DNA from: Omnitrophica bacterium RIFCSPLOWO2_12_FULL_50_11
GTDB lineage: Bacteria > Omnitrophota > Omnitrophia > Omnitrophales > Danuiimicrobiaceae
Reading direction: 5' to 3'
NCBI GenBank assembly: GCA_001804315.1
Contig: MHFT01000104.1
Span: forward strand, 1-47,272
DNA length: 47,272 bases
Made by a program: the position numbers and the translations under genes. The notes beneath the pieces were generated by a model. That model was not told the origin of the DNA, ran no database searches, and worked only from the letters and a program-made list of their open reading frames with translations. Shown one piece after another: positions 1 through 45,021 of this stretch (within the stretch, counting starts at the first letter, position 1; each line of letters begins with the position of its first letter).

Positions 1-3000
1 AGCTTGGTCCTTGTCGGAGAAGTCTTTGGCGTACACGGTCACGTGAAAGAGGTCTTGGCCGTCAAACTCAGTCCCTGTCCCGGTTGTGAGCTTGGTCCTG
101 AGCGCAGGGTCGTTTATCTTTCTCTGTTCAATCCAGGTTACGTCGAGTTGCAGGCTATTTGTCGGGTCGCCGTCGGCGTCTGCCGCGGTTCCGTTTTCGT
201 AGCGGATGGATTGAATTCGGATCAAACTGCCATCACCGAAGACGTCGAGCTGGGTTGTTTCGCCCGTGGCGAAGTTGAAAGTGTTCGTATTGTAAGTGAT
301 GAGGTTTACTGCTTTCGCAAAAGGATCGAAGCCCACTGGGAGGTTGCCACGGAGATCCTCGAATTCAGCGATCTTAGTGAGATACGTTTGCTTAGCGAAG
401 GTATGTTTTCCCGTTTCTTCGTGATTTTCGATCTCCCAACTTTTTATGTAAAAAACGTTGTCTTGGCCCTTCTCCGCAACTTGGAATGTATGACTTTGAA
501 GTTCGGTGAAATTTGAATATTGTCGGGTGGTCTCGTCAAATACGGCGCTGTCGTAGACAAAAAGTTCCGTTCCTTTGGCTTCCAGATTGACACCGGCAGG
601 ATTGAGCTCGGAAACATTGTCCCTCCGAACTTGACGCGTATAGGTGTCGTCCGGCGTTCCTTCCTTGAAATCACTTCCGAAGTCGTGGATGACAAAGCTA
701 TCGTTGCCAATTTGCTGCTGGCGGAAGGAACTGATCTCGCGGTCTTCGGAACCCTCTTTCCTCTTTAAGTTAGAATCCAGTTCAATCTTGAACCGTCTCG
801 TAAAATCGTAATCATTCGTCTCATTCGTCCCATCTTTCATGTACTGGAGCACATCATACGAGGTATGAATGACAGCGGTAAGCTGCGCCTCAGGTCGTGG
901 ATCCTTCTCGAAATAATTAATCTGCTTCACGCGATCTGCGCGAAAAAGACCGACTTCATAAACCGTCTCTTGCACTTTGATACAGGAGGTCGAATTCCCG
1001 GAACACTGAGATGTCGCAAGAGCTTCAGAATTTGTCTGAGTGTCAATCGGCGTCAAAAGTTCATAAGTGGTGACTTTGTCAATCCGGTGAGCGCCGAGGT
1101 AATCGTAAACGGACTCGGAAAGCAGTTTGCCGCCGTCATCGAAACTTTGGATAAAGTCGACAAGGCCGATTCCAAATACGTCGGCTCGGCCAGTCGTCCC
1201 GCGAGGAAAGTAATGAATCGAGGTCTCAAGCCAGCCACCGGCAGCAGGAGGGACCGCTTTCTCAGCCGAAACATTCCATTGCTCCAAGCGGGCGAGCAGC
1301 CGAAAGTCTTCATGGTTTGAATCGGTGCCGCGATAGAAATAATCGCTTCTCGTAATAATCTTAGCGCCCTCGAAGTCATATATATAGGAAGTCGAGGCGC
1401 GGCCATCGGCGTCATATTCGGTAACATTCACATTCAGACGCTCTGTACCTGAACCCAGTTTCGTTTCAAGGGTCTTACGAAGCCGGAAACCGGCCGGGTC
1501 TTGAGGATCGGAATACTCATACTGGACACGATTTCCATCCGGCCTTTCCACGCGGTCGATCACCGGAGGATTCTTTGTATCGGCGTGGGGCTTGTAATAG
1601 GTCCTCGTTCGAAGTTTGAATGTTGACATCGGGCCGTCGTCTCGGATCGCGTAGTCAAGGTCCGGATTCCAACGCTCCGTCTCTGGAACACCATCTCCGT
1701 TATCATCGTTGTAAACATATGTTTCCACAGCGCCATAAACATCTTTGACAGAGTCAATTTCGTACTCGCCGCCCTGCTGGGAATATTTAACTTCCCTGCC
1801 ATCGCTAAATCGCACCGTTAACTTGCCATCGTTAGGATCCCTCACAATACTCTGAACAAAATCGGTTCCAATCACGCTTGTGACCGTGAAGTTGGTCACT
1901 TGATCTAGATTCTCATCCAACCAGTATTGGACAACGACGCCATTCGAATAGACGATCTCACGGTGGCGACAATTCGGAACGTCACTCAAGCAATTGACGA
2001 CCGAGGTCAAAGCACTTTTGTCAAATCCGACATCGCTTAAACGTCGGGATCTCGGATCGATCACGTGCTGAAACTCCTGCAAAATGTTGCCGTCTTTGTC
2101 CACGACGGCCGCGATGGCACCATTCTTAAAAAAGGTGGTAACGCCATTTTCATCGGTCACCGAGGTCAGAGCGCCGCTCTGATCCCACCTTCTAAAAAGA
2201 TCTTTTCGCCGCTCCTCAATTAAACGGGCAAAGTGCAAGTCTCCGGGATGAGCTTCATCGAACTGGTAGGTTTGCGAGACGTGTCCAAGACTCGAGGTAA
2301 TCGTGACCGTTTTCTTCACATCATCGTAGGCGTAGTGCAGGGTATCCCCGGTTCCCAAGTTACGGTACACACTGACACGACCTTGTTCGTCGTACACTTC
2401 CTCAACAAACACCTTTTTGACGGCATCGTAGACAAGCGCATTCAATATACGGTCATCGAAGGGTCCAAATACACCATCTGTACCTAATGAATAGGTAAAC
2501 CGAGAAATTGGGTCAATGCTAAGGTGGCCCGCCTGATCATAACGAAACGCGGTGACGGTTATCGTCCCGCGGTTCGGATCTTGTGCGTAGCGAGTTAATT
2601 GGCGCACGAAATCAAACGCGGCCTCTCGTTCGGTCAATGCGTACGAACCGTCCGCTCGAAGCAAACGTCCCATGTCATCTCGCCGGAACACCTTGGCGTA
2701 CCCATCGTAGGTCAAAAGATTTCCAGCGGAGTCAAAGGTTTCAACAAAAGATCGACCCTGCTCAAAGCCGAATACGGAACGGAACACGTCATCTCTTGCT
2801 CCGATTTTTCCGTCAGCACCCAACGCAAGTTCTGTCGTACTCAAAAGAGGGCCAGCAACGAGATCGGCGCTGATCGTGCGAACTTCAACGGTGACATCCC
2901 CGGCACCGTTATATTGATACGTGGTCATCGTTCCTGCGACAGGATCCACAATTTCCTTGATCCGATTGAAGCTGTCGAAACGCTTGACCAACTCACTCGC

Positions 3001-6000
3001 CAGCCTGTCATTTCCACCGCCCAACACGCCATCGACTCCCATGTCGATCGTAACCGCGGCCTGAACGGTATCGGTACTGTCTCGGAGAATAAGGGCTGCC
3101 TGATTGGTACCGACACCGAAATCGTACTGGATGGTTTCCCCAGTCGCCGTATTGCGGGAAGAAATCAATACGCCGCTCTGATACGTATGAATGATTTCTT
3201 CGCCATCCGCGTTGACTCTCGTTACGATCACCGTGCCACTGCCTGGAACATTCGCCCGCGGCATTTCGCCAAAGATTGCTAACGCTTGAGCAACGTCAAA
3301 GGTACTAGCAGTCGCTCCAACCAGAAAGTCGTCCGCATTACCGAACTCTCGGTCGCCGCCCATGCTGATCACACGGGCCGCCCCGCCAGGTAACGTGACG
3401 GTCACCACATTTTGAGCCGTGTCGTACGAATAGGAAGTAAGCTGTGCGAGCGTTTCATTGTAAGAGGAGACGATCTGGCCGTTTTGGTACGTTTCGACAA
3501 TTCGGTAACTGCGATCGTCCAAGTAGGAAAATTGAACCAGCTCAGGTTCGTCAAAGGGATTTTCCTCTGAGCGGTATCGGTACGTGTAAATCGAACCGTT
3601 CCTCGCGTGAACCGTAAACGTGCGATCTTGATGAAAGGTATAGGTGGCAAGCGTCTCGCCGGTGGTTAAATTCTTCGCTTCGATCGGCCGCCTTGTAAAA
3701 GGACCATAAATAAATTCGACGATTTCGTTCGCTTGATTGGTTTGCTGCAAGGCCAAAAGCGTATCGCTGCCTTCCCCTAATGACTTTCCTTCCTCCGGCC
3801 TCCAGAGCTGACGCATGCCGTTGAGCTCGATCCAAAACGTGCCGTCCCGATTGTCGAGGACGACCGCGCCTTCGACGCCGACCGGCGCACCTCCAAAACC
3901 AGCTATCTCCGGCATCAAAGCCGGCGCCGGCGGCGGATTGTGAAAGTTGGTGTCGCGGATGTCGAGACGTTCTTCTCCGCCCGTAGCGCCGCTAGCACCT
4001 TCGATAACGCCGCGGCCGCTCATGCTTGCGTTTTCAATTTTCCGCTGAAGGTCTTCGATATTTTTCCGGATTCTTTCGCAGTCCTCCGGATCCTCGGTAC
4101 TCTCTGTCGCGCATTGAATGAAGGAACGAATCATCCGTTTCAAAAGTTTGATTTCATTTTCAAGATCCGGCGCACCGCCCCCGCGTACGCGCAATGAAGA
4201 AAAGGCGGAACCGGCCGAACCCGGAGCGCCTTGCGGCACCTGATCTGGAGAAGGTTCCGGACACGTGATTTCCTGATCGTCCGATGTCAAGAGATTGCTG
4301 TCGGTGCCAAAGTTAAAGCATGTGATTTTCTCGCTCCCAGCCGCTTGCTTGGAATAATAGGTCTCGGAAAAATTGACGTAGCCTTCGAAAAGAAGTTCCT
4401 CGGGTGTCACGCCGTCTTCATTCAACCGATGAATCGCAATCGTATTCGTCACGTAATTGATCCGCGTAATTTGATGCGCGGTATCGTCATAACGAATCTC
4501 GTAGTTGTCGAAGGCGTTAGGATCAGGATCATCCGCCTTGGGAGCCCGATGGCGAAGCAAACGTCCGACGCTCCCGTCCGAAAGCTGCTCGTACTCAAGA
4601 AGAATGGATGTTTGCTCTGTACCAGCAGCGTCAAAAATTCGATATCTGCCGTCGGCCGCAACAAACTTTAGATTCGGTTGGTTGGATAACGTGGAGACGG
4701 CGACCGATACGGTGGAAAGAGGAGTTCCTGCTGGTGCGAGTCCCGCATAAATGGAAATGGTCCTGTCGATGTAGTTCAAAAAGGCAACGGTTGGTGGAGT
4801 AGTATCGGTAGCAGCGTTGTAAATGAGGGCATAATCTGAGAGTCCTAAACTGAGGGGGTCGCCTTCAGGAGGACCACGGTACCGGAGCAAGCGGCCGAAA
4901 TCTCCCGCTGGTAGCGCTTCGTATTCTGTGAGAACCTCTGGGTGGTCCGGATCGAGGATTTGGTAGACGTCGCCGGCTCGTTTCAGGGTGACTTTGAACT
5001 CTTTTGTGCCCACAGCCGTAAAGGTGCCGCTCTCGATGAGGTCGCCCGTCGATTCGTAAAATCCGGAGGTTTCATTGAGGCGAAGCTGGGTCCGGTAAAA
5101 GGTTCCCTGATCGTAATCAAGATAAGTTAGGATTCCATCTTCATCATCGTAGACGTATTCGACGTGGATCCATCGGGCGGCGTCTTCCGGGTCGGGACCT
5201 TGATATTCGAGAAGTCTTCCGACCCCGCCTTCCGCCAGCCGTTCCGTTACTTGGAGGTACTGCGCATTCGCAATATCATAAAAGCGTTACGTATCACCAT
5301 CTACTTCCGCGAGCACTTTAACTGTGACAGCGCCTGCACCGTCATGCACGAGAACGCCGGAGGCGATGAACTGGCCGTCTAAACGCCGCATGACAAACGT
5401 TTTGTCGGCATAGTCATAGTACGTAACGCGATCCTCTTCATATTGAAATTGGACATCGATTTGAATATCGGGCGTCAAGGGATTGTGGTCCTGGTCATAA
5501 AAACCCTGAAAGGCAAGCAGCCAACCTGTTCCGTTCTCCGTCAGCTGCCACACCTGCGTCGCAGCCGTGGCGGGGTCGAGAACAAGGAGCTCACGATTCT
5601 CCCAGTCGTAGATCCTGAGGTCAATTCCAACGAGCTCGCCGTTCTTCTCGATGATGATACCGGACCTGAGGAGCCTCCCTGGATCTGAAGTTCCCGGCAT
5701 AACTTCGTATACCTGAAAGGAATCGACTTCATCGGGAGCATGTGCCCGTGTAATGATCTGGACCTCGCCACTCGAATCATCATAGGAAAATTCTCGAACC
5801 ACGAGCTGGTCGGGATGTTCTGGATCCGTGAAATCCCCTATCTCCAGAATTCGATTGGTCAAAAGATCCATCTGAAAGTAAGCACAGGCAGCATCCGCAC
5901 GAGAGCAATCAGGGTGATCTCGATTCGGTGCTGTACACGTTTGAATTTGGCCGCTGCTTTCACAACTCATTTCCGTACTGGCAAAATCCAACGACTTGCC

Positions 6001-6387
6001 AAATTCAACAAAATCCGAAACTGTTTCCGCAGGCGGTTCCGCCCTCTCCGGCTCTTCGAAATCTTTGACTCCGATTTCAGGGTGATCGACACGCGTACGC
6101 GTCGAAAAATCCCGTGAATAGCGGACGTCACCGAATAGCTTTTCCTTGTTCAGGACGTCACTCACGTCATCCATCCAATCAGGTCGTTCCGTGAGAGGGA
6201 CCTGCGGAATGGAATATCCCATCGCGATCGGCAAGTCGAGTTGTGTGGTGATAAACGTCACGATCACGGCCACCGAAATCATTCTCATCAGCGGCCAATA
6301 AGTCGGCGTTCTGAGCGGCGTGAAGATTTTTTGTCGATCCATCGTTCTACAGGTTTTGATAAGTCTTGGAAATCCTTTCAGCCCCAA
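1..6387 (-). pseudogene. Giant YD/RHS-repeat-like cell-surface protein, partial (runs off left edge), interrupted by one in-frame TAA at 5287-5289
   Basis: N-terminal 366-aa ORF (5287-6387; TTG start at 6387, ATG alternative MDRQKIF at 6342) has a hydrophobic signal/anchor segment. I scanned plus-strand triplets 1-5286 in the same frame and found no tta/cta/tca, so the frame stays open to the left edge. Translation is YD-rich (e.g. AFRYDQAGHLS, YAYDDVKKTVTITSSLGH, YVYNDDNGDGVPETERW). Confidence 0.8.
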
Positions 6388-6685: not shown

Positions 6686-8080
6686 TCACACACTAATAAG
6701 GGTTTGAACGTAGAAAAACTCGGCCGCGTCATGAACGCCCGTGTCTTTGACGAAAGGGCCCGCGTGAAAGTGAGAATAGCCGATTAAAAACCCAATGTGC
6801 TTAGTCACCTCCCACCTGGCCAGCAGATCCAATTCTTGACCTACAGTCGTACTCGCGCCTGATCGGGCGGGACGGATGACATTCTGCCCTGCACCAAACC
6901 AGGCACTGCGATTTGTATCCAAGAAAAACCAATGATAATCACAACTCAATTTAATCTTTCTGTGCGGCTTCAAGTCTGTCCCTATTGTTACATCGTTCAT
7001 ATTCCTGAGACTGGCAAAATCCATATAGCCATAGAAAAAGTGATTGGTCGGAAACAAATTGTCAAAATTTTTAAAGTCCCCATCTCGCGGATCATCATCT
7101 CCCGAACCATGATTATATTCGAAGTGAAATCTTGGTTCCCACGGCAGGACCACAAAGGTATAACCAACTTCATTGTGCCAAGCCCACGCTTTGATGTCAT
7201 CGTGCGAGCGCGATCCAAACTGCCACGCCCACTCAATTCCGTAGTCAAAATTCCACTTCTTCCCTTTGAACCGGTTTCCAGCCGTATACTCTTTGAGCTG
7301 CCCAAACGCTCCCGCTTTTTCCCCCACAATTTCATTATTCCGGTTGTGCCGGATGAAAAGAAACGTGTCAAAAACATGATCAAGAAGGGGTCTCAAACTT
7401 GTATAAACGCCGTATAAATTGTCCTCATGCGCTCCTGAGTCTGCTCGATTGCGCCTCACACGAGTGACTTGGCTGAACCAAGCATCCGCTTGAAGCCAAG
7501 GAACAGGATCATAAATTACCTTGGCGGCATCAAAAACCCGCCCGACGTTCGACCAACCAAAAGGGCCAACGAACCGTTGGTCCCCATAGCTTAATTCTTG
7601 TCGTCCTGCTTTAAGGGTCAGAGGAACCTTCTTCCACGGACTTTTCAGCTCCCCATAAAGCTGGCGGAGATCCATCCGATCAACGAAAGCAGTGGTGCGA
7701 TTAAGACTGCTGTCCGCAAAACTTTCCGCATCTTGACCTTCAATAAAAACTCTGAAATATGGGTCGAAAGCAAGATCGGCATTCAGGCGATTCCTAAAAA
7801 GATGGACAGCATCATCCTCATTCGCAGCGTCATTAAAATTGAAATCGTCACGAAGTTCAAGACGGTAACGGAACTCGCCTCCGAATTTAACTCTCACTCG
7901 ATCTCCATGCAGCGGAACCGGTCTCGTCAGACCATCCAGGAAGCCATCTGATACGCTTAACATCTGAGAAGCAGGGTGAAGTGTTCGTGTAGGCTCTTCA
8001 GCAAAACTTGAACCTGCTGAAAGGGCGAAAACAACAATCACTAAAACGGCCCTCCTTATATTTTGAACGAGGGAGTCCAT
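6686..8080 (-). CDS. Outer-membrane beta-barrel porin, alginate-export family-like
   Basis: 464 aa, signal peptide (VLVIVVFALSAGSSFAEE), VKFGGEFRYRLELRDDF...LFRNRLNADLAFDPYFRVFIEGQDA, GRQELSYGDQRFVGPFGWSNVGRVFDA; amphipathic strands to the C-terminus. Confidence 0.75.
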   Translation of the reverse strand: MDSLVQNIRRAVLVIVVFALSAGSSFAEEPTRTLHPASQMLSVSDGFLDGLTRPVPLHGDRVRVKFGGEFRYRLELRDDFNFNDAANEDDAVHLFRNRLNADLAFDPYFRVFIEGQDAESFADSSLNRTTAFVDRMDLRQLYGELKSPWKKVPLTLKAGRQELSYGDQRFVGPFGWSNVGRVFDAAKVIYDPVPWLQADAWFSQVTRVRRNRADSGAHEDNLYGVYTSLRPLLDHVFDTFLFIRHNRNNEIVGEKAGAFGQLKEYTAGNRFKGKKWNFDYGIEWAWQFGSRSHDDIKAWAWHNEVGYTFVVLPWEPRFHFEYNHGSGDDDPRDGDFKNFDNLFPTNHFFYGYMDFASLRNMNDVTIGTDLKPHRKIKLSCDYHWFFLDTNRSAWFGAGQNVIRPARSGASTTVGQELDLLARWEVTKHIGFLIGYSHFHAGPFVKDTGVHDAAEFFYVQTLISV

Positions 8081-8646
8081 GATTTCATGTCCTCTTTGGT
8101 ATTGATATTAAAGAAAAAGTTGGAACTAAATTCGGACCGAATCAGCTTCTTTTCGGGCACCGTCGATAGAAAATCATGCATCGAAAATTTATTCTTTTCA
8201 ATCGCCTCTTTTTTTATGGAACCAGACAGCCGAGATTCATACAGGCCGGGAAACGGCTGCGTTTGATTCCCACTCGTGCAAAACAATGTGACCAGACTTT
8301 GCCGGTCATGCTGATTCAAAAGCGTCTCAAGCACAAATGTCGTGAGCGCGGGCATATCGCAAGTCAGAACCAAGAGTGAAGTGTTTGGAAAAGTGAGACA
8401 CGCCGTGTACAAACCGCCAATGGGCCCACAGTTTGGAATCAGATCTTTTTCGATGCGGCAATTTAAAAATGAGTGTTCCCGCTCGCGGCTGGTCATCACA
8501 ACCGGCTCAAGATTGAGTTTCCTTAAAAGTTTGACCGCTCGCTCAAGAAGGGTCACCCCGTCGAGGCGAGCCAGTGCCTTATCCTGCCCAAAACGGGTGC
8601 TTTTTCCACCCGCAAGCACAATTCCTTTAATGCCGTCGCGCCTCAT
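8056..8646 (-). CDS. mobA: Molybdenum cofactor guanylyltransferase MobA
   Basis: 196 aa, GIVLAGGKSTRFGQDKALARLDG nucleotidyltransferase signature, VLTCDMPALT. Confidence 0.85.
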   Translation of the reverse strand: MRRDGIKGIVLAGGKSTRFGQDKALARLDGVTLLERAVKLLRKLNLEPVVMTSREREHSFLNCRIEKDLIPNCGPIGGLYTACLTFPNTSLLVLTCDMPALTTFVLETLLNQHDRQSLVTLFCTSGNQTQPFPGLYESRLSGSIKKEAIEKNKFSMHDFLSTVPEKKLIRSEFSSNFFFNINTKEDMKSWTPSFKI

Positions 8647-9073
8647 GAATCAACTCCGCTGGATCATCGCAACGCATCCACTCCGAAGTTCCATCTGCAT
8701 AAACTTCCTTTTTCCAAATGGGTACGCGCTCTTTAATTTGATCGACCACGGCTCTCACCGCGGCGAAAGCCTCATTCCGATGAGGGGCAGTGACCGTAAT
8801 GGCCACCGCTACCTCGCCCACCTCAAGCCATCCGACACGATGCAGGACCCTAATCTCGTGTGCTTCGTACCGCCCTTTAACTTCATCGATGATGGAACGA
8901 ATTGCCTTCTCTGCCATCGAAGAGTAAGAGTCATAATAAAGTCCTTTGACGCGACATTCTTCCTCGTGACTACGCACGACGCCGATGAACGAAGCGACGG
9001 CTCCGCAGGATTCATCAGGCTGTCGGCTTAAGAAATCGGAAGCAGAAATAGGTTGATCGGTAAGATACATCAA
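8627..9073 (-). CDS. moaE: Molybdopterin synthase catalytic subunit MoaE
   Basis: 148 aa, GAVASFIGVVRSHEE..., VLHRVGWLEVGEVAVAITVTAPHRNEAFAAVRAVVDQIKERVPIWKKEVYADG. Confidence 0.92.
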   Translation of the reverse strand: MMYLTDQPISASDFLSRQPDESCGAVASFIGVVRSHEEECRVKGLYYDSYSSMAEKAIRSIIDEVKGRYEAHEIRVLHRVGWLEVGEVAVAITVTAPHRNEAFAAVRAVVDQIKERVPIWKKEVYADGTSEWMRCDDPAELIHEARRH

Positions 9074-9319
9074 TTAACCACCCGACATGGGGGGCAAAAT
9101 AGCCAAGACATCTTGATCTTTCAACTTTGTATCCGGCGCTACGAATTCCTCGTTCACCGCATATCGAAGAGACATTAATTTCCATGGATCTCGATCGACG
9201 CCGCTAAATAATGACTGTGCAAGTTCCCCTACAGTCGTACACGCTTCGACTTGAAGCATTCGCTCTCCAGTGCCAAACACGTCCTTCAATTGAGCAAAGA
9301 AAAGAACCTTGACGGTCAT
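9074..9319 (-). CDS. moaD: Molybdopterin synthase sulfur carrier subunit MoaD
   Basis: 81 aa ubiquitin-like fold pattern ending in ILPPMSGG (C-terminal GG); adjacent to moaE. Confidence 0.9.
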   Translation of the reverse strand: MTVKVLFFAQLKDVFGTGERMLQVEACTTVGELAQSLFSGVDRDPWKLMSLRYAVNEEFVAPDTKLKDQDVLAILPPMSGG

Positions 9320-9351
9320 CCCACCACCTGTTTTTCTGCCGTTTCCATCAC

Positions 9352-10572
9352 CTATCCGCCTGCCAGAAACGGCAGAACATGCGTCACCACCTTCTCACCC
9401 TTTTTTACCCCTCTGCCATTCGGAGGAATCAGGACTAAAGCATTGGTGTCACACAAGGAAGAGATCATGTGAGAACCCTGATGAGGCAAAGGGGTTACTG
9501 CTCTTCCATTTTGCGAGGGTTGAACCTTCGCCTTCAAAAAAACAAGTTTCTGGCGATCAGATGCAACCGCTTTTGAAAGCTTTTGCTTTTCCGTGCGTAG
9601 ACCAGGATTCACAAATCCAGACATGGAGCGAATTGCTAAATAAACGTATTCATAAAAACAGGTGAACACACTCGCAGGATTCCCTGGGAGGCCAAAGACG
9701 ATGACGTTTCTCCTCTTCCCAAAATAAATGGGTTTGCCTGGTTTTTGATTCACCTTCCAAAAAATTTGACGAACCCCTAATCCCCGTAGAATGTCTTTCA
9801 CATAGTCATAATCACCAACTGAAATTCCCCCGATGAGAATCACAAGATCGCTTGAACGAAGCGCCTTGCGGACGATTTTCCTCAAAATTCCTGGTCTGTC
9901 CTGAACGGTCTTAACCAAGAAAGGCTCTACCCCAAGCAATCTGAGCGCAGAAGAAATCATCACGGAATTGCTGTCATAAATTTTCCCACGCGTTAATTTC
10001 GTCCCCGCCTGAATCAATTCACTCCCTGTCGCAATCACCGAAACTCTTGGGCGTGCAAAAACTTGTACCTTTCCTTTTCCGAGTGACGCGAGGATCGCCG
10101 CGACCGCTGGATGAATGACGGTGCCGTTAAAGACCACTTGGGCTCCTTTTTTTAATTCCTCACCTCGCAAACGAATATGCGCACCGGGTGCCACCCGTTT
10201 TGTGATAACCAGATCCTTGCCTTCTACTGTAGCTTCCTCTTTCAGAAGGACGGCATTGCCCCCGCGAGGAATCAATGCGCCTGTCATAATTCTGTAGGCC
10301 TTTTTGGGAGGTAAGAATTTAGGAGGATCCCCTGCTTTAAGAGCGCCCGCGATTTTAAGAAAAATTGGATTCTTCTTCGAAGCAGAATTTATATCCCGCG
10401 ATCTCAACACATACCCATCCATTGCTGAATGATCATATTGAGGCAGCGGAAAAGGCGTCTTAACGTCCTCCGCAATGACATAACCTAAAGAATCCGCTAC
10501 CCGAATCGTCTGTCTCTTTGGCCCTGGGGTATTTTTTTCGATCAATCGTTGCGCTTGTTGAAAGGAAATCAC
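9352..10572 (-). CDS. moeA: Molybdopterin molybdenumtransferase MoeA
   Basis: 406 aa, PLPQYDHSAMDGYVLRSRD, IMTGALIPRGGNAV, SVIATGSELIQAG, GGISVGDYDYV, GLPGNPASVF. Confidence 0.93.
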   Translation of the reverse strand: MISFQQAQRLIEKNTPGPKRQTIRVADSLGYVIAEDVKTPFPLPQYDHSAMDGYVLRSRDINSASKKNPIFLKIAGALKAGDPPKFLPPKKAYRIMTGALIPRGGNAVLLKEEATVEGKDLVITKRVAPGAHIRLRGEELKKGAQVVFNGTVIHPAVAAILASLGKGKVQVFARPRVSVIATGSELIQAGTKLTRGKIYDSNSVMISSALRLLGVEPFLVKTVQDRPGILRKIVRKALRSSDLVILIGGISVGDYDYVKDILRGLGVRQIFWKVNQKPGKPIYFGKRRNVIVFGLPGNPASVFTCFYEYVYLAIRSMSGFVNPGLRTEKQKLSKAVASDRQKLVFLKAKVQPSQNGRAVTPLPHQGSHMISSLCDTNALVLIPPNGRGVKKGEKVVTHVLPFLAGG

Positions 10573-11315
10573 AAGAGACCCAAAAGTAATCTCACAGAAA
10601 CATATAAAATGAGAACCGCGAACATTTGCTGGAGCCGTATTTTTGGCAAATGATACGCCCCGAGTCGAGAACCAATTTGCCCTCCAATGAAAACAGCCAA
10701 TCCCAGGGGCAGCATCGAACCCACCTCCACTGTCCCTTTGTGAATTTGTCCAAAGAGACCCGCAAGCGAATTCGCCGCAATAAATAAACTAGCCGCGGCG
10801 GCTGCTTCCTTTACGTTCACCCATTTCATCAGAAGCAGTAAGGGACTTAAAAAAATTCCGCCGCCGATTCCAACAAGTCCTGAAAGAAATCCAATGAAGC
10901 CACCTAAAGGTAAGCCAATCGTCCACGCTTCTTTCGCTGAGACCTGCCTTGAAACCTCAAACAACTTTTCAGGGAGCAGCATTCTTAAAGCAACAACAAA
11001 AAGCGAAAGTCCTAAAAGAAGTGAGAACACATCCTTGCCGATCGACGTCCGTCCGCCAAGATACGCCATCGGAATGGATAAAACAAGATAGGGCAGCACC
11101 CGTTCAAACTTAAGGTACCCTCCGCGGTAAAAGTGCCAAAGCCCGCCTCCTGTCACAATGATATTACAAATCAATGCGATCGGAGGAATGTTTTGATACG
11201 GAAGACCCGCGAGCGCAAGAAACGCAAGATAGGACGATCCTCCGCCAAATCCCATCATGGAATAAATGAGCGCAATCGCAAAGAAGACAGGCAGCAGCCA
11301 AAATGGAATTGTCAT
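10569..11315 (-). CDS. TauE/SafE-family anion permease
   Basis: 248 aa polytopic; MMGFGGGSSYLAFLALAGLP and GFLSGLVGIGGGIFLSPLLLLM duplicated motifs typical of TauE/SafE. Confidence 0.85.
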   Translation of the reverse strand: MTIPFWLLPVFFAIALIYSMMGFGGGSSYLAFLALAGLPYQNIPPIALICNIIVTGGGLWHFYRGGYLKFERVLPYLVLSIPMAYLGGRTSIGKDVFSLLLGLSLFVVALRMLLPEKLFEVSRQVSAKEAWTIGLPLGGFIGFLSGLVGIGGGIFLSPLLLLMKWVNVKEAAAAASLFIAANSLAGLFGQIHKGTVEVGSMLPLGLAVFIGGQIGSRLGAYHLPKIRLQQMFAVLILYVSVRLLLGLL

Positions 11316-11340
11316 ATCTAAAACACCTCAAGAAATCCCT

Positions 11341-11448
11341 GTCATCCTGAGCCCTTCGCCGTCATCCTGAGCGGAGCAGCGGCTCAGGACAGGCTCCGCG
11401 AAGGATCTCACGTTCCGAGATCCTTCGGCCTACGGCCTCAGGATGACG
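11341..11448. repeat. GTCATCCTGAG...AAGGATCT-type palindromic intergenic repeat (copy 1)
   Basis: gtcatcctgagc...gcgaaggatctcacgttccgagatccttcggcctacggcctcaggatgac; terminal gtcatcctgag/ctcaggatgac inverted arms. Confidence 0.8.
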
Positions 11449-11460
11449 TCTTGTTAATTC

Positions 11461-12369
11461 TTAATGTCCCAATCCATCCATCATCTGATACGCGTGCAGG
11501 ATGGACGGAAACATCGCGTCCAGTGACTCACGAACGCCACGAGATGAACCCGGAAGGTTAACGATCAACGTATTTCCTTTTTGAGCGGCAACTCCCCGTG
11601 AGAGCATCGCGTAGGGTGTCCGTCTCTGCCCATAGGCGCGGCAGGCTTCTGTAATGCCTGGAATTTCGCGGTCCATAATTTCCTGAGTTGCTTCAACGGT
11701 TACATCACGTGGTCCGAGACCGGTTCCCCCCGTAGTCAAAATCAAAAGCACACCTCTTTCACAAAGCTCCTTGAGTTTGGCTGCGATCACGTGTTTGTCG
11801 TCCGGCAATACGTCAACGCTGGGATGAATCCCGTACGCCTCAAACCTTTCCTTTATCATTTTTCCCGATTGATCCTCGCGCGTGCCTCGAAATGTGCCAT
11901 CCGAGGTAACGATGACAGCGGCAGAAAAATTCTTTGGAATCCACTCCTTCTCGCCGGATTTTCCACCTTTTTTCTTGATCAATTTCGTAGAAACGATCTC
12001 CATCCCCTCGTCCACGGGTTTCAACATATCATAAATCGTGAGCGCCGCTACCGAGGCGGCCGTTAAAGCTTCCATTTCAATTCCGGTTTTCCAAACCGTT
12101 TCAACGGAAGAGGTGATCACCACACGATCCGCTTGAACGTCAAAGTTAATTTCAACGGAATCAATTGGAATCGGATGACAATAAGGAATGAGCTCACTCG
12201 TCTTCTTGGCCGCCATCACCCCCGCTGCTTTCGCGATTGCTAATACATCTTTCTTAGGAAGATCATTTGCTTTTAAGCGTTCCAACGTTTCTGGTTTCAC
12301 GAGGACGGTACTCGCTGCGACTGCCTTCCTCAATGTGTCTGTTTTATCCGTAACCGATTTCACGGTCAT
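11461..12369 (-). CDS. Fusion of cyclic pyranopterin monophosphate synthase (MoaC) and molybdopterin adenylyltransferase-type domain (MogA/MoaB)
   Basis: 302 aa. Residues ~1-160 MoaC-like (AAKKTSELIPYCHPIPIDSVEINF, TGIEMEALTAASVAALTIYDMLK); ~165-302 MogA/MoaB-like (LILTTGGTGLGPRDVTVEATQEIMDREIPGITEACR...LIVNLPGSSRGVRESLDAMFPSILHAYQMM). Confidence 0.9.
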   Translation of the reverse strand: MTVKSVTDKTDTLRKAVAASTVLVKPETLERLKANDLPKKDVLAIAKAAGVMAAKKTSELIPYCHPIPIDSVEINFDVQADRVVITSSVETVWKTGIEMEALTAASVAALTIYDMLKPVDEGMEIVSTKLIKKKGGKSGEKEWIPKNFSAAVIVTSDGTFRGTREDQSGKMIKERFEAYGIHPSVDVLPDDKHVIAAKLKELCERGVLLILTTGGTGLGPRDVTVEATQEIMDREIPGITEACRAYGQRRTPYAMLSRGVAAQKGNTLIVNLPGSSRGVRESLDAMFPSILHAYQMMDGLGH

Positions 12370-12379
12370 GCCCTCCTAT

Positions 12380-13402
12380 TTATCCGCCCACTTGGCACAT
12401 ATAAGCAACAGCTTCGTCTTCCACGGAACCCGTAAACTGATGTCCCTTTGGTTTCAACTGGGCTGCCTCACGAATCAACTGGACAAGTTCCGCTTTCGAT
12501 TTTCCTCCGCGGAGCGGCGTTCTCAAATCGAACGTCTCTTCCCCATGAAGACAAAGTTTGAGCGTTCCATCTACACGCAGGCGGATGCGGTTGCACTCGG
12601 AACAAAACGGATGAGAAATGGAACTGATGAAGCCAATTTTTCCGACGCCATGGGCCGGCCGATAAACTTCTGATACATCTCCTGGAAGCCGCGGCTCTGG
12701 CAGGAGAACTGCCCATTTTGCGATTTCATTCTTCACCCAGTCATTCGAAACGAAGTATTTTTTCTTTGCGACGAAAGAATTATGAGTCGGCATGAGTTCG
12801 ATAAAGCGCACTTCCACAGGATGCTCCATGGCGAAAGCGACGAAGCTTTCAATTTCATCGTCGTTGATTTCCTTCATGATGACCGCATTGATTTTAACCG
12901 GATGAAATCCAACCTGAATTGCTTTTTCGATTCCCGTTACCACCCGATGGTGCACATCCCAACCGGCAATCTGTCGGAATTTTGCGGAGCTGAACGTGTC
13001 CAAACTGATATTGATCCTCTTAAGCCCTGCCTCGAAAAGGTCTTCTGCCTGGTCGGCAAGGAAAATTCCGTTGGTCGAAAGAGAAAGGTCTTTAATTCCT
13101 GGGATTTGACTTAAAGCGTTGACCAAAGAAGAAAGATTTCGACGCGCAAGCGGTTCCCCGCCCGTCAGCCGAATCTTATCAATACCCAAGTCCACGAAAC
13201 ATTCACTCAGGCGGAGAATCTCTTCATAACTCAAAATGTCTGTGCGACAGGTGAATGGAAATCCGCCAGGCGGGATGCAATAGCAGCAACGCAAATTGCA
13301 GCGATCCGTTACGGAAATTCTCAGGTAGGAAATTCCGCGGCCGAAAGAATCGACGAAGTCGTCCTGAATCACTTCTGCTCTCCTTTCCAATTCTCCCACC
13401 AC
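12380..13402 (-). CDS. moaA: GTP 3',8-cyclase MoaA (radical SAM)
   Basis: 340 aa, RISVTDRCNLRCCYCIPPGG radical-SAM Cx3Cx2C, C-terminal CSECNRIRLRVDGTLKLCLHGEE, ends VGG. Extreme N-terminus (GTG start) overlaps a palindromic repeat. Confidence 0.92.
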   Translation of the reverse strand: MVGELERRAEVIQDDFVDSFGRGISYLRISVTDRCNLRCCYCIPPGGFPFTCRTDILSYEEILRLSECFVDLGIDKIRLTGGEPLARRNLSSLVNALSQIPGIKDLSLSTNGIFLADQAEDLFEAGLKRINISLDTFSSAKFRQIAGWDVHHRVVTGIEKAIQVGFHPVKINAVIMKEINDDEIESFVAFAMEHPVEVRFIELMPTHNSFVAKKKYFVSNDWVKNEIAKWAVLLPEPRLPGDVSEVYRPAHGVGKIGFISSISHPFCSECNRIRLRVDGTLKLCLHGEETFDLRTPLRGGKSKAELVQLIREAAQLKPKGHQFTGSVEDEAVAYMCQVGG

Positions 13403-13515
13403 CTGCTGGAGCGCCTACGCCACCAAAAACGGCGGATCCGCCCCGCTGTTTGGCGGAGAAGCCACCTCGGCTTTGAGCCGAGATGCCGCTCTGCAGCAAA
13501 ACACGAGGTGGTGGG
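13395..13515. repeat. Composite palindrome with CCCACCACCT/AGGTGGTGGG outer arms and inner hairpins, at the moaA start
   Basis: Outer arms 13395-13404 and 13506-13515; inner ggcggatccgcc palindrome and ctcggctttgagccgag hairpin. Confidence 0.75.
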
Positions 13516-13576
13516 ATCGGGAGGCGTACGTCATTTCTAACGTCGCCCTAACGTTTTAGAAACCCTAGCACCGGCC

Positions 13577-13702
13577 GTCATCCTGAGTCCCGCCTTCGGC
13601 GGGACGAAGGATCTCGAGATTCTTCGCCGATCCGACCGATCGGTGCCAAATGACCGAGCGGCCGTCCGCCGCTTGACCGACTGGCGCTCCTCTCAGAATG
13701 AC
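13577..13702. repeat. GTCATCCTGAG-type palindromic repeat (copy 2)
   Basis: gtcatcctgagtcccgccttcggcgggacgaaggatctcgagattcttcg...ctctcagaatgac. Confidence 0.75.
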
Positions 13703-13745
13703 AAAGGCTAAGCCTTAGGCATCTAAAATCGGAGATCGTTTTTGC

Positions 13746-13901
13746 TCAACTATCGTGCTTGGTAAGCTCCGAAAGTGATTTTTTAAATTCCTTGATTCCT
13801 TGCCCTAGCCCCTTCGCTATTTCTGGTATTCTCTTAGCACCAAATAAGAGAACCACAACAAGGAAAATAAGCAGGAGCTCCATAGGACCCGGCATACTCA
13901 T
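13746..13901 (-). CDS. tatA: Twin-arginine translocase TatA-family protein (51 aa, absent from the ORF track because of length)
   Basis: Reverse-strand translation [53 protein letters not shown] helix, FGxxKxPE motif, amphipathic helix. Confidence 0.92.
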
Positions 13902-14506
13902 AGCACTTCCTCCGCTTGAGCCGTCGTTTTGGACTCGCTCGACTTCGATAAAACCATCTCAATAGCAGGAAAATTATTAACGGTTCGGCAGGCGGCTTCA
14001 CACATGGCACAACCGTCACAAGCAAAAGAATGAACGACCGGCTTTTGATCGCACATTTCTATTGCCCGATCCCGCAAAGGACACGCAAGATAACACAGTT
14101 GACAATTAGCTCCTCCCCACGCAAGGCAGCGAGAAATGTCAAGACGTGCGATCCGCGGCCCTGTATCCAAGCAATCGTCAATGCGAGGGTACGAACCTAA
14201 CGTAGGGGCGCCATTTTCCGCCATACAGCGCGGCGGATGCGCCGAGATTTTTTCCGCCAAAAGACGCGGCGGACCCGCCACGTTTTCTGGCGGGGGCGGA
14301 ATGGCGCCCGACGAGACGGGCGCGATGAATCGCGCCCCTACGTCGTATGGCTTGCTGTCTCGTCCGCCAAAGGACGGACCCGCCTTCTTTGTGGCGGGCA
14401 ATGACGTCGCTGTTAGGATTTGCCGAAACCCATCAAGCAACCGCTGAGGAAAGCTTTTTACAAACTCTCGCCGATTCATGTGATTTACCTTTTGTGCAAC
14501 GCTCAT
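13898..14506 (-). CDS. Ferredoxin-type 4Fe-4S protein (NapF-like), with a repeat-encoded insertion
   Basis: 202 aa; [17 protein letters not shown] and [12 protein letters not shown] clusters; residues around [46 protein letters not shown] are encoded by a palindromic repeat. Confidence 0.75.
14201..14342. repeat. GC-rich composite palindrome (GGCGCC family), copy 1, inside the ferredoxin ORF
   Basis: Outer arms cgtaggggcgc (14201-14211) / gcgcccctacg (14332-14342); internal gcggcgga...tccgcc-type hairpins; related copy at 32212-32305. Confidence 0.85.
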
Positions 14507-15381
14507 ACAGAAACGTTCACCCTTGAACGATAAAGTTCAAAACACTGGCGGCAAATTCCTCTCGATCGCTCCCAGCCTGGATGATCCCTTTCAATTTTCC
14601 GGAAAACGGCTGCCTCTCTCCCCTGCCCATCAGAAATCTGCTCGTAAGAATGAAATCTGCACAGAGGGCACTCAAATCCGCCTTGAGCCGACATTTCCGA
14701 AGCCCGCCCATTTTTTGCGAGCTCAAGAAGCTGTCCCTGAGTCCAGTGCCTCCGCTTTCCAATTTCTTGAAACGCTTTTGAGGCGGGGAGATTTTGTACG
14801 AGGCGGCGATCGATGTAAAGGTCCCAGAGAAAACGGAACCGGTCGCGGATCAAATTCTCTTCCGCGGGAGAGTCTCCTCCTAAAGGAGTCTTTGGGGAAT
14901 ACTCGAAGCCGGGATCGAGCATGTCCGAAATCCTTAGGAGTTCATGCCGCACGAAAGCATGAAGAAAGGGACGCTCCAGAACGCGCTTAGTCTGGAGGCT
15001 TAAAAACACAGTTTTTAAATCACCCTCCCAATAAAGTTCAGATCCTTCTTCTTTTTTTCCAAAAGCGCGTCTGATCAGAACCATCGTGTTAAGATCTAAA
15101 CGTGTAAACTCCGCGAGGAGTTCCTCAAAAAGAGCGCGAAGACCCAGCGTTACAAAAAAACTCGCAGCCAATTCCTGAAAAGCTTCCTCGCTCCTCGCGC
15201 CCTCATAAATTGAATTTCTCTCGGTATGATAAGCGCTCGCGATCGAACGGTCTCCCGCGGCTTCAAGAGACCTCACGGTCCAGAACACTGCTTCTTCCAC
15301 AAAAGAAGGTTCAAATTCTAAGCGATACGTCACGAAAACTCCATTGAAGCAACCGGCCGGGCAAACTCGCAAGAGACACAA
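14503..15381 (-). CDS. Uncharacterised accessory protein of the molybdoenzyme operon with C-terminal paired CxxC motifs
   Basis: 292 aa; C-terminus FECPLCRFHSYEQ...[19 protein letters not shown]; located between the TorD-like and ferredoxin genes, overlapping both neighbours. Confidence 0.65.
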   Translation of the reverse strand: MCLLRVCPAGCFNGVFVTYRLEFEPSFVEEAVFWTVRSLEAAGDRSIASAYHTERNSIYEGARSEEAFQELAASFFVTLGLRALFEELLAEFTRLDLNTMVLIRRAFGKKEEGSELYWEGDLKTVFLSLQTKRVLERPFLHAFVRHELLRISDMLDPGFEYSPKTPLGGDSPAEENLIRDRFRFLWDLYIDRRLVQNLPASKAFQEIGKRRHWTQGQLLELAKNGRASEMSAQGGFECPLCRFHSYEQISDGQGREAAVFRKIERDHPGWERSRGICRQCFELYRSRVNVSV

Positions 15382-16259
15382 GCGGCCTCAATTTTCTCTT
15401 GGACCGCACGAAGCGGAAGATCCTGGGAGCCCGGTTTGATGTTTTGGGCAAGACAATCCTGAACGACAAATTCAAAGGCGAAATCAGCAATTCCTTTCAA
15501 AAGTCCTTTCGAATATTTGGACACGCGAAGGCTAAAAGCGGGAAACCAGTAACTTAAATGCTCCGAGAGGAAATGGCGGCTCGCCTCCATCGAAATTTGA
15601 GCTTTTTCTTCTTTGCCGTCCTCCAAAGCAAGTATTTCTTTATAGAGAAGGAAGTACATGAATTCTAATTCAACCGAGGCATGATCGGCCCGCTCATGAG
15701 AACGGTTTGAAAGCTTAAGCCCGAAGGCGCTGTAGAACGCTGTGATATCCGCCAATTGGTGAGGCTCGCGGTGGGTATGCTCCTCACCATATTCCAATTC
15801 ATAAGCTGAGGCGACTCCTTTTACCGTATGGCCTAAAAGTTTTTCGTACTCCTCCGCCCATTCTTTGGGCGTTGTGTTTTTTAACCTCCCGAGAAGCGCG
15901 TCCAAAAGCCCTCTTAATCTGTCTCGGTTGTGGAAAGGAAGTGTATCGACTGCCGCTTGCCAGATGCCCCTCGTCTTATCGACGAGAGAAAGGTCTTGAG
16001 CAAGATCAGGACGTCTGAAGAAGAACGAAAGCGCCTGATAGAGAATGCTTCGTGACAGGAGTACGGCTACGTCAACGTCATTCTGAGCGCAGCGAAGAAT
16101 CTCGAAACACGGAGATCCTTCGGCCCGGAGCCTGTCCTGAGCCAGAGATCCTTCGCCCCTTCGGGGCTCAGGATGACTGGCGAAGGAGGCCTCCGGATGA
16201 CGGGAACTCCTGCCGGCGTTCCCGTCAAATTGAGTTTTGGTGAATGTTCGGTCTGACAT
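15330..16259 (-). CDS. TorD/DmsD/NarJ-type molybdoenzyme maturation chaperone (N-terminus repeat-encoded or mis-called)
   Basis: LSRSILYQALSFFFRRPD, YEKLLGHTVKGVASAYELEYGEEHTHREPHQLADITAFYSAFGLKLSNRSHERADHASVELEFMYFLLYKE: TorD-like helical protein. First ~65 aa come from the 16078-16202 repeat. Confidence 0.8.
   Translation of the reverse strand: MSDRTFTKTQFDGNAGRSSRHPEASFASHPEPRRGEGSLAQDRLRAEGSPCFEILRCAQNDVDVAVLLSRSILYQALSFFFRRPDLAQDLSLVDKTRGIWQAAVDTLPFHNRDRLRGLLDALLGRLKNTTPKEWAEEYEKLLGHTVKGVASAYELEYGEEHTHREPHQLADITAFYSAFGLKLSNRSHERADHASVELEFMYFLLYKEILALEDGKEEKAQISMEASRHFLSEHLSYWFPAFSLRVSKYSKGLLKGIADFAFEFVVQDCLAQNIKPGSQDLPLRAVQEKIEAACVSCEFARPVASMEFS
16078..16202. repeat. GTCATTCTGAG-type palindromic repeat (copy 3) inside the chaperone ORF
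   Basis: gtcattctgagcgcagcgaagaatctcg...gagatccttcgccccttcggggctcaggatgac...; read on minus as SHPEPRRGEGSLAQDRLRAEGSPCFEILRCAQND. Confidence 0.8.
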
Positions 16260-17463
16260 GAAAAGGTTCTTCCACTTGGGTTCGAATCACTTCTGTTCCT
16301 AGGTCATCATAGCCGATCACGGTGTCGTTATAAAGCGTAAAAGGCTTGCCGTGAATCTCGGTTTCAAACACTTTTGGGCCTTCCTTGATTTCATAGCGGA
16401 AGATCACACGGGTCGTTTTTCTAAAAAGTTGAAGCACTGCTAAAAGTTCCCGTTCCGGCACCATGTAGGTCTCAATGGCATGATCCACTCCCGGACCAAA
16501 CATCTGCTTCAAATAAGCACGCGGAACCCAACGCGGAGGGATGTAATAGCCGTTTGGCTCTGTCCCAAATTGCGGATAAAGAGGAAGGGCTACTTTCGCA
16601 ATTTTTACAAGATAATAAATAGGATGGTAACGATCTTCCGCCCACCCGCCGTCCTTTCCAATCTTGACTAAGCCCTGAAGACGAATCTGCCCAATACATT
16701 CGACCATGCAGCGGGTCTCCATCGGTCGTCCCCCTGTTTCCGGATCCCTTCCTTCAAGCCGCGGATAGCAGGCAATGCATTTTTCCATAATGCGGGTGGT
16801 CGGCCGGTACATTGTCTTTTTATAAGGGCAGCCTTCCATACATTTCCGGTAGCCGCGGCAGCGTTCCTGATCCACAAGGACAACGCCATCTTCAGGCCGC
16901 TTGTAAATCGCGTTACGCGGACAGGCGGCGAGACAACCGGGGTAGGTGCAGTGATTGCAAATTCGGGCGAGATAAAAAAACCAAGTCCTGTGTTCTGGCA
17001 GCTTCACTCCCTCTTTGTCATAAGCATCGGGCACGCCTTTTCTACTCAGAGCGGTATCTTCGTAAATATTCGGGAAGCGCCACTCTTCATCGGTTGGAAG
17101 ATAGCCGAGAACGCGCTGCGGTTCTTCGCCGATATGTTTTTGGGCTGCCTCAAAAATCGTTTTTCCTTCAAAGGTCTTTCCATTCCACTTCTGTCCGCCT
17201 GGATTTGTTTCTTCCAGCATATTCAACAATTTGACATCCCAGAATTGGGGATAGCCTCCGTAGGGCTTGGTTTCGACATTGTTCCACCACATGTACTCCT
17301 GACCTTTTGAAAAGGTCCACGTGGACTTACACGCAAAGGTACACGTTTGACAGGCAATGCAGCGATTCAAATTAAACACAAAAGCAAATTGCCTCTGGGG
17401 ATGATGCTCCGCATGGGGATATTCCATCCTTCGATGAATCTGCCAGTTATAGACTTGTGCCAT
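16225..17463 (-). CDS. NXR/NAR-like molybdoenzyme beta (iron-sulfur) subunit
   Basis: 412 aa with four Cys clusters: CIACQTCTFACKSTWT, CNHCTYPGCLAACPRNAI, CRGYRKCMEGCPYKKTMYRP, CIACYPRLEGRDPETGGRPMETRCMVECIGQIRLQG. Confidence 0.9.
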   Translation of the reverse strand: MAQVYNWQIHRRMEYPHAEHHPQRQFAFVFNLNRCIACQTCTFACKSTWTFSKGQEYMWWNNVETKPYGGYPQFWDVKLLNMLEETNPGGQKWNGKTFEGKTIFEAAQKHIGEEPQRVLGYLPTDEEWRFPNIYEDTALSRKGVPDAYDKEGVKLPEHRTWFFYLARICNHCTYPGCLAACPRNAIYKRPEDGVVLVDQERCRGYRKCMEGCPYKKTMYRPTTRIMEKCIACYPRLEGRDPETGGRPMETRCMVECIGQIRLQGLVKIGKDGGWAEDRYHPIYYLVKIAKVALPLYPQFGTEPNGYYIPPRWVPRAYLKQMFGPGVDHAIETYMVPERELLAVLQLFRKTTRVIFRYEIKEGPKVFETEIHGKPFTLYNDTVIGYDDLGTEVIRTQVEEPFHVRPNIHQNSI

Positions 17464-17750
17464 TAAATTCTCCCCTCATCTGGGCGCCACATCCTGATGG
17501 CGTCACCAATCACCGAGCGAATGAACTCATCTCCTTTTTGCTTCCAAGCAAGATAAGGACCCTGATAAAATGGATTCCGAAAGACGGCGAAAATTTTTTC
17601 CTCATCCCAGCCTTCACGAACAAATTCTTCGGCAAAGCAAAGGGTCATGTCACGAAGCGCTGCTTCGCTTTGACCTCGCAACTGAACACCAATAAATTCA
17701 ATGGGGTCTTCTGGATCAAATTCGCTCTTTGGCATTTGCTTACTGAACAA
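17463..17750 (-). CDS. Small 95-aa protein between alpha and beta subunits, unknown function
   Basis: MFSKQMPKSEFDPEDPIEFIGVQLRGQSEAALRDMTLCFAEEFVREGWDEEKIFAVFRNPFYQGPYLAWKQKGDEFIRSVIGDAIRMWRPDEGRI; overlaps the alpha stop by a few nt and abuts the beta start. Confidence 0.75.
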   Translation of the reverse strand: MFSKQMPKSEFDPEDPIEFIGVQLRGQSEAALRDMTLCFAEEFVREGWDEEKIFAVFRNPFYQGPYLAWKQKGDEFIRSVIGDAIRMWRPDEGRI

Positions 17751-20700
17751 ATCCTCCGCTCAGATACTTTTTCATTACCTCATTCTCGCTCGCCGGTGTA
17801 AAGCCGGTGGTAGCGGGCGCCCAAATTCCTTTTCCTCCCAAGCCGCCGTCTTCAGCCTTACTCACCCGTACCAGTGTTTCTTTGGGAACCGTGTTCACGG
17901 CATGATTGTCTGCTTCACCGCCGAAGATAAACGACATAGATACCTTTGCCTTATGAAAGAGCGTATCGGTTTGGTGCATCGGCATATGCCAATTGCGCGT
18001 GACACTCTGTTGGGAACCGTAGCGGAAATTCGCTTGGTATGCGCCGCCTTCGGACAATGCCCTTTTATCCGGGCGCGTTTCATGAGCCTTCACGGTTTTC
18101 TCCGTTGCGATGTTGGTTCCATGTTTCATCATCACCGTGTTGTAAGGAAACGCGGGATTATATTTCACTCTGAGCATGAGACGCGTTACCTTGTAGAAAG
18201 GATCATCCGGTTTTGCTCCGATATAGGGGCGGTCCGCTGGATTGGCGTCCACGTAGACATAATCCCCGTCATTAATCCCAAAATCCTTCGCTGCTTGGGG
18301 ATTCATGTGAAGTTGTTGCTCGCCCACTCCGGGCGTGCGTTTATCCATCCGATAGGGATCACCGAAATTGGAATCCCAAATCTCATGCCAATCGACATTG
18401 CTCCACATAGAATGAACCCGATGCCGGCTTTTGGGTGTAAGGCAAAAAAATTGAAACCCTCGTTCCCAGAGAAAATTCTTCGTCTTCTTCACTTCGGCCC
18501 ACGGCAATTTGACGTTGCGAACGGTTCGCGCGTCCCAGTGCTCCGCCTCGAGAGGAAGTCCGTAATCATTCGGACGAACGTAAGGATTGGACGTCACAAT
18601 CACATTCGGTAGATAGGGTGTCGCTTCAGGTCCCTCACGGTGTACAATGAAGTTCTCGCCGTATTCGATCGCTTCAGAGACATCCGTATAAGCTTGGAGG
18701 CGCCCCGTTTCGGTATAGAAGGGATAATCCTCATGAATCTGTTCCCAAAAGGGGATGCGCGGATAGGTTCTAAAAAGCATCAGGGCGCCGCCTGAAGGCC
18801 CGTATTTACCAGCCATGATGTCTTCCAGTTTGTAGCCTGCTGTCGTCGTCGAAGTGTCAAGAAGCCGTTGGATATAAACCTCGCGTTTACCTTCTAAGGC
18901 AAATTTCCAGTAGTCGTAGAATCGTTGGTCGCCGGTGATCTCGCCCAGCTTCTGCGCGATGCCGGCGATAATCAGGAGGTCATCTCGGCTGTCAAAAACG
19001 GAGGGAATTCCACCTTTCCAAATCTGAAGAAAGGGGTTTGAACACGAGGCTGTCACCTCAAGCCCTTCAGACTCAACCCAGCTATTCGCGGGAAGTCCAA
19101 TGTCTGCATACTCAATGGAGGCGGTCATTTGAATATCAATGGAGACAATCATCTCCACATTCGGATTGACGTTCTTGATCATGTCGTAGACATGTTTGGC
19201 ATTGTTGATGAGATTCACATTCGTAAACACCATTGCTTTTGTAGGAGTCGGCATGTGGGTTTTGCCCGTGAACACCCTCCTTCCCTCCTTTGGCGTCTCA
19301 ACGATGAGCGGCCGATCCCCGTGATTCCAATAGGCGGGTTCCTCATCTTTGAAAAACGCTTTCACATGCACGTCCTTCCCGTGTGCGTTCGGATCGAGCA
19401 ACGGATGAAAAGGATCTTCAGCCACCCAACCTTTAAATCCGTGTCCTGTCCAAGGAGACCCCTGGAAGAGGGCGGCTTTATAATTGCCGGCCCACGTATG
19501 ACAGCCGGCACCTGGCTTTCCAATGTTCCCCGTGAGAATTAAAGGCAGATAGGCAGCGCGGTTCATTTCTGTCGCATGAAAATAGTGATTGATTCCTTCT
19601 CCTTGGTGGATCGCCGCCGGTTTAATCGTCGCGATGTCTTTGGCAAGCTGCACAATTAATTCCTTAGGGGCATGGGTCATCTCAGCAACGGTTTCGAGGT
19701 CGTAGTCCATAAGATGAATCCGGTAAAGAGAAAAGAGCGTCATCACCTCGATTTCTTTTCCATCAGTTGTTTTCACCTTGAACGTTCCGTGAAGAGCCAG
19801 CTTGATTCCTTTCTCGGCGAATCGCCTGCCAATTTCATCCCGCGTGAGGGCGACGGGTTCATTGTTCCCTTCGTCCCACGCCACAAAATCACCGAGTTTC
19901 TCATACTGCTCATCTTTCAACCCTTGATACTGATAACTTGGACCCTCTTTAGAAAGACCGTGCCGATAGTTGGGGAAAATCTCCTGAGCCCTGAGGCGTT
20001 TTAGATTATCGGTTCTGACGAGGAGCGGAAAATCGGTGAACCGGGTCACAAAATCCCGGTCATACCAATGGTTCTCGATCAGGAGGCGCGCAAGGCCTAG
20101 GAATAAAGCTGCGTCGGTAGCGGGACGAATGGGAAGCCAATAATCCGATTTCGTGGCCGGCGGACTGTACTCGGGAGTGATCGTAACAAGTTTTGCACCG
20201 CGCTCCATACATTCGATGAACCAGTGGCTGTCGGTCAGCTTATTCTCAACTAGATTTTTGCCATCTTGAATAATCAGTTTTGTGAAGCGGAGATCGTTGA
20301 AATCACAATCTGAAGCTTGGAGCCCATGAACCCATGGATGCCCCGGTGCTTGATCTCCATGCCACGTATAATTGGACCAGGCTCTGCCCGCTTTTGCTTC
20401 CTCCTCACCAACGCCCCGGATACGAGTGTCGAGCAGCGCCATCGTATTCGCAAGCCGGTACATCCCATATTTCCCAAAAACCCCTAACAGTCCCATCCCG
20501 CCTCGGAATTTCATCGTACGAATGCCTGAACCTTCCATCGGCGCGAGCATTTCCTCAGGATATCCTTCGGCGAGAAGTTTCCTTTTCCCTTCTTCACCAC
20601 TGTAGCGCTTTCCAATCGCGATCAAGGCTTTCGCAATGTACGTATTGGCCTCGTCCCACGAAATTTTTTCGAACTGATCCGTGCCGCGCGAATCGAATTT

Positions 20701-21171: not shown

Positions 21172-21270
21172 CCCACCACTTGCTTGACAAGACTCCCCCT
21201 TTAAAGGCGGAGTCTTGTCTTCCTTAGGTGATCCGCCGCCCTCGGGCGGCGGCCAAGCAGGTGGTGGGAT
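21170..21270. repeat. Composite palindrome with ATCCCACCAC/GTGGTGGGAT outer arms and two inner hairpins, abutting the alpha-subunit ATG
   Basis: Arms 21170-21186 and 21254-21270 (one mismatch); inner gacaagactcc/ggagtcttgtc and gccgccctcgggcggc hairpins. Confidence 0.85.
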
Positions 21271-21292
21271 CATCCCCATCGTAGCGCCCTGT

Positions 21293-42583: not shown

Positions 42584-42656
42584 TGCCCCTGACTGGACTC
42601 GAACCAGTCTCCCCGGCTTAGGAGTCCGGTGCTCTATCCGCCTGAGCTACAGGGGC
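42584..42656 (-). tRNA. tRNA-Arg (anticodon CCT)
   Basis: gcccctgtagctcaggcggatagagcaccggactcctaagccggggagactggttcgagtccagtcaggggca; full cloverleaf apart from one 31-39 A-G mismatch. Confidence 0.92.
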
Positions 42657-42663
42657 GATAATC

Positions 42664-43018
42664 TTAAGCTGTTTCATATAAACGACTTACGATTTCATCA
42701 AATTTGTCGTTTTGCTCAACCACCGGCTTGGTGTCCATATAGGTGTCCATCAAATTCCCTATACGTTGCACTGCCGACGCTTTGTGATCGCCTGATAGAT
42801 GAGCATATCGCTGGGTCATCTGAATCGTTTTGTGTCCCAAAAGGTCCTTTATCGTCATCAGATCCACACCAGACATTGCCAGATGACTCGCAAAGGTGTG
42901 CCTTAAATCGTGGAAGCGGAACTTATGGATCTTGGCTGCTTTGAGGGCCGTTTCAAACGACTTTCGAATATTATACGGAGAGCCGTCCTTTTTGCACAAG
43001 ATATATTCGCTCTCAGGA
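42664..43018 (-). pseudogene. Tyrosine recombinase/integrase, C-terminal fragment truncated by ISAs1
   Basis: KFRFHDLRHTFASHLAMSGVDLMTIKDLLGHKTIQMTQRYAHLS (HxxR...H...Y). First residues of the track ORF (MRLPC) are read from the IS terminal repeat. Confidence 0.88.
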
Positions 43019-44400: not shown

Positions 44401-44448
44401 CCGTCTGTACCCTTGCGGTGCCTGGCACCTTCACGTTTCAGAGCGTCC

Positions 44449-45003: not shown

Positions 45004-45021
45004 TCCTCCCTTCTCATCTTT

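Follow-up and report, generated by a model that had tools for sequence, protein, structure and literature searches.

Giant open reading frames (ORFs) of Omnitrophota are reportedly the subject of a preprint by West-Roberts et al., which PMC12057145 cites. Omnitrophota are known for giant ORFs in which few domains are recognised (PMC10066038), and another PVC lineage has been reported to have a giant extracellular protein that includes an RHS region (PMC12057145). In Serratia, rhs gene fragments have decayed by nonsense and frameshift mutations (PMC2935791).

The window analysed here is a complete contig (C104) of 47,272 bases from a draft genome of 2.24 Mb (107 contigs, 94% complete). Like the giant ORFs of Omnitrophota, a gene on its minus strand shows a very long frame, an export signal, repeats and few annotated domains, but the copy in the window is stopped after about 350 codons and its frame leaves the contig, having covered at least 6.4 kb as compared with the criterion of >20 kb for Omnitrophota giant ORFs (PMC10066038). 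It shares with RHS/YD-repeat proteins (PF05593) a 3' RHS_repeat match above the curated cut-off, with many more in the genome, although the available stretch, which ends at the contig edge, contains no core or C-terminal tip. A premature stop in an rhs-type gene is also known from the degenerated rhs fragments (PMC2935791); in contrast to those silent and further degenerated sequences, the gene in the window has a single stop in an otherwise intact frame. The premature stop in one copy is a further data point and not a new kind of thing. If real, it means that one point mutation is enough for the loss of a giant RHS-type surface gene of Omnitrophota in at least some cells, and such a loss would fit the idea that costly giant proteins are dispensable under some conditions. 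Gene callers will report fragments of 366 and 1671 codons here instead of one giant gene.

The interrupted frame and its orthologues

The stop codon appears as TTA on the plus strand and is read on the minus strand in the context GAT GGT GAT ACG TAA CGC TTT TAT GAT (Table 1). From a probable start codon, ATG 6342 or ATG 6288, the long frame extends with this one TAA at 5289-5287 to position 1, where it runs off the contig. On the 5' side, 366 codons are open from TTG 6387 (380 from stop to stop), and on the 3' side 1762 codons are open from 5286 to 1, confirming on the minus strand what a sequence-only reading of the window had described as an in-frame TAA with about 1762 open codons on one side and 366 on the other. 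Over 2129 codons the gene frame has 1 stop, for which base composition predicts about 97, whereas the other two minus-strand frames have 72 and 111, so that the TAA interrupts a real gene and is not background.

Table 1. Coordinates of the interrupted giant gene and of the putative Rhs tip array in the window.
Feature	Position	Strand	Remark
In-frame TAA	5287..5289	-	repeat-unit position, Tyr in 4/4 orthologues
5' part of the giant gene	5290..6387	-	predicted N-terminal hydrophobic export signal (MRMISVAVIVTFITTQLDLPIAMG) and first beta-rich repeat units
3' part of the giant gene	1..5286	-	further repeat units, then YD/RHS-repeat region
RHS_repeat PF05593, single repeats	about 2887-2979 and 3379-3483	-	in the 3' part
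First possible in-frame restart, GTG	5011..5013	-	91 codons past the TAA
End of one Rhs core and tip	within 44279-47272	-	member of the putative array
DUF4288-like protein	46275-47030	-	putative Rhs tip array
Second Rhs core (TIGR03696) and different tip	45022-46224	-	putative Rhs tip array
HEAT-repeat protein, possible immunity protein	44449-45003	-	putative Rhs tip array
Third Rhs fragment	within 44279-47272	-	putative Rhs tip array

The export-signal-like N-terminus is followed by beta-rich repeat units and then by RHS/YD repeats, the RHS_repeat model matching the 3' part with an E value of 1.2e-13 and 51.5 bits (curated cut-off 22). The RHS-associated core (TIGR03696) and a variable tip were not found within 1-5286, which ends at the contig edge. 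Around the TAA neither a Pfam match nor a hit in the profile search of solved structures was obtained. The interrupted gene is predicted to encode a secreted, giant surface-type RHS/YD-repeat protein.

Four orthologues were found at the family level, all of which align uninterrupted through the TAA site and carry Tyr there (GDTYRFY, GDTYRFY, GFYWFY and GDTYRFS), encoded once by TAT and three times by TAC. Identity to the orthologues is 40-48% before the TAA and 43-50% after it, where two of them could be aligned, and the residues right after the stop (GGVGRLLEYQGPDP and neighbours) are among the best conserved. When the repeat-unit profile was run over the relatives, the column of the TAA site was aromatic in 33 of the 39 units having a residue there (24 Tyr, 7 Trp and 2 Phe), which bears out the earlier observation that the stop occupies a conserved aromatic position. 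All 38 family matches, drawn from 32 genomes of the order, are free of internal stops; one TAA flagged as such in the relative G004 was rejected because it is positioned upstream of the G004 start codon. The named relatives are metagenome-assembled genomes of Omnitrophota, groundwater included, and homologous frames in the same order have matching N-termini and reach up to 21,284 codons. A single-sequence scan of genome contigs and a scan of viral contigs returned no relatives.

Compared with the orthologues of G005 and G001, the window gene has one extra repeat unit (AADGRYRIFD) within 4425-4900 on the minus strand, apparently a gain or loss of a unit within the N-terminal domain. In each of the five family genomes that have it, the giant gene coincides with the end of a contig or a gap in a scaffold (loci L021, L022, L023 and L024, and position 1 of the window), a pattern suggestive of a repetitive or multi-copy 3' part that resists assembly.

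Origin of the TAA codon

We favour the reading that a nonsense substitution recently changed a Tyr codon to TAA and that this is a real allele in part of the population, with a probability of roughly 0.66; this value and the weight given below to an error are judgements and were not computed. As is typical of a recent pseudogene, the stop occupies a conserved sense codon and the orthologues are intact. The change of a Tyr codon to TAA, put forward by the sequence-only reading as the simplest account, gains support from the orthologues and from a frame with no further lesion. Nonsense alleles are generally frequent in large, costly, non-essential genes. A single-nucleotide change would have turned the Tyr codon into TAA in a giant exported surface-type gene with RHS/YD repeats, and ribosomes would halt within one of the first repeat units, in the middle of a beta strand. 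Translation would yield an exported fragment cut short at about 330-350 residues, with >5 kb of the gene left untranslated; cells in which the TAA allele is present probably lack the full protein, and its function is presumably abolished. In a structure model of an orthologue, which is of medium confidence (pLDDT 68, pTM 0.50), the Tyr is residue 280 of the modelled piece and lies in strand 279-283, so that the truncated chain would end mid-strand. A Foldseek search with this model placed teneurins and Rhs proteins on top, at TM-scores of only 0.08-0.12 over the query, which suggests a repetitive beta sheet and nothing more.

Among the accounts listed in the sequence-only reading, a recent nonsense mutation and a sequence error are supported, while phase-like switching and readthrough are not. 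The main rival is a wrong base in the metagenome assembly, caused by low coverage or a strain chimera, with the gene itself intact. Such an error fits the sequence as well as a young mutation does, and the flawless remainder of the frame is expected of the one as much as of the other. It is favoured by the draft state of the genome with its 107 contigs, by the difficulty of assembling a giant gene that runs into the end of a contig or a gap both in the window and in each of the four relatives, and by a stated coverage of only 4.4 for the contig of one relative. However, the site lies 5.3 kb in from the end of the contig, where the sequence is unique and occurs once in the genome, and the 25 neighbouring genes checked, 10,304 codons in all, are free of internal stops, which counts only weakly against frequent errors since these genes were chosen as open frames. 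Overall, we regard an error as rather unlikely, but as an explanation to be taken seriously.

Regulated or constitutive readthrough of the TAA would yield the full-length protein, the stop keeping the level of a costly product low. The frame is open and conserved on both sides of the TAA and nothing in the sequence alone forbids readthrough, but TAA is also an ordinary terminator nearby, ending 9 of the 25 neighbouring genes, and is generally the tightest stop codon. A covariance model detected 42 tRNA genes in the genome, and no suppressor tRNA was seen among them; ARAGORN assigned ordinary anticodons to 41 of them, and the last, cut off at a contig end, has an anticodon loop reading CGT (Thr). 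A missing release factor was considered as well and rejected, given that two genes with a peptide-chain-release-factor (PCRF) domain are present, as for the class-I factors RF1 and RF2. The RNA downstream of the TAA folds no better than shuffled sequences (z -0.82), and the relatives, free of internal stops, do not share the stop. The hallmarks of programmed or suppressor-dependent readthrough, namely a suppressor tRNA, a missing release factor and a conserved stop, were thus not found, and we see no sign of a special decoding mechanism in the sequence. Readthrough is therefore very improbable, and we give hardly any weight to a variant in which low-level TAA readthrough limits the giant surface protein with neither a suppressor tRNA nor a special RNA element.

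Reversible on/off switching, whether by phase variation, inversion or retroelement-driven diversification, might also have placed the TAA, and in its favour stands the general tendency of surface proteins to undergo such switching. Against this, homopolymers in the roughly 90 bases to each side of the TAA do not exceed 4, there is no flanking inverted repeat and no tandem repeat, and the genome contains neither a template for the region nor a second copy of it. The site is thus devoid of the simple-sequence repeat, invertible segment or silent copy that marks phase-variable genes, and the phase-like silencing suggested earlier appears scarcely conceivable. Equally hard to believe is a split into two functional genes with the TAA ending the first, because, although both halves keep their coding character, there is no start codon for 91 codons past the TAA, the GTG at 5011..5013 is not preceded by a ribosome-binding-site-like sequence, the second product would lack an export signal, the stop is predicted to fall inside a beta strand of a repeat unit and no relative is divided at this site.

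Age of the lesion and state of the downstream frame

Apart from the TAA, no second stop or frameshift was found in 6.4 kb (2128 other codons), and homology and coding composition are kept downstream, the GC content by codon position being 0.596/0.396/0.546 before the TAA and 0.577/0.414/0.558 after it. Given this intact downstream frame, any decay must be very recent. A random substitution in this gene would be nonsense in about 3.4% of cases, Tyr codons being among the largest classes of nonsense targets (22% at kappa 2), and with zero further stops the gene can have diverged neutrally by no more than about 1.4% (95% bound) since it was inactivated. The unbroken frame narrows the neutral divergence to below this bound.

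A relative-rate test against the G005 orthologue gave 28 unique residues for the window and 35 for G005 before the TAA, and 21 and 15 directly after it, which is no excess, whereas >300 alignment columns past the TAA the window had 83 and G005 43 unique residues (Fisher p 0.007 for the far-downstream contrast). Post-stop decay was rejected as the cause of this excess, since about 49 changes over 441 sites imply roughly nine further stops by our own arithmetic from the nonsense fractions, and none was seen. As its onset is not at the TAA and it is too large for decay without further stops, the residue excess predates the TAA or has another cause; a more likely source is rapid evolution of the RHS region or exchange within it.

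Other Rhs genes and neighbouring clusters

In the whole genome, 67 RHS_repeat matches are distributed over eight contigs (C25, C28, C32, C44, C54, C56, C80 and the window). Several of them are near contig ends, and frames of 1334-1756 codons occur beside shorter Rhs fragments. The opposite end of the window (44279-47272, minus strand) looks like an orphan Rhs tip array (Table 1). Next to it, within 42584-44186 on the minus strand, a tRNA-Arg gene is followed by a C-terminal fragment of a phage integrase (42664-43032), and a DDE transposase gene (43038-44186) abuts this fragment, an arrangement that looks like an integrase gene interrupted by a transposon. Between the two Rhs regions, a predicted cluster for a molybdoenzyme of the type II DMSO-reductase family occupies 8056-22987 on the minus strand. 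It encodes a catalytic subunit of 1179 aa, an iron-sulfur subunit, a nitrate-reductase-delta-like chaperone and a cytochrome c plus ethylbenzene-dehydrogenase-like subunit, and the cluster also includes the cofactor genes for MoaA, MoaC, MoaE, MoeA and a MobA-like protein.
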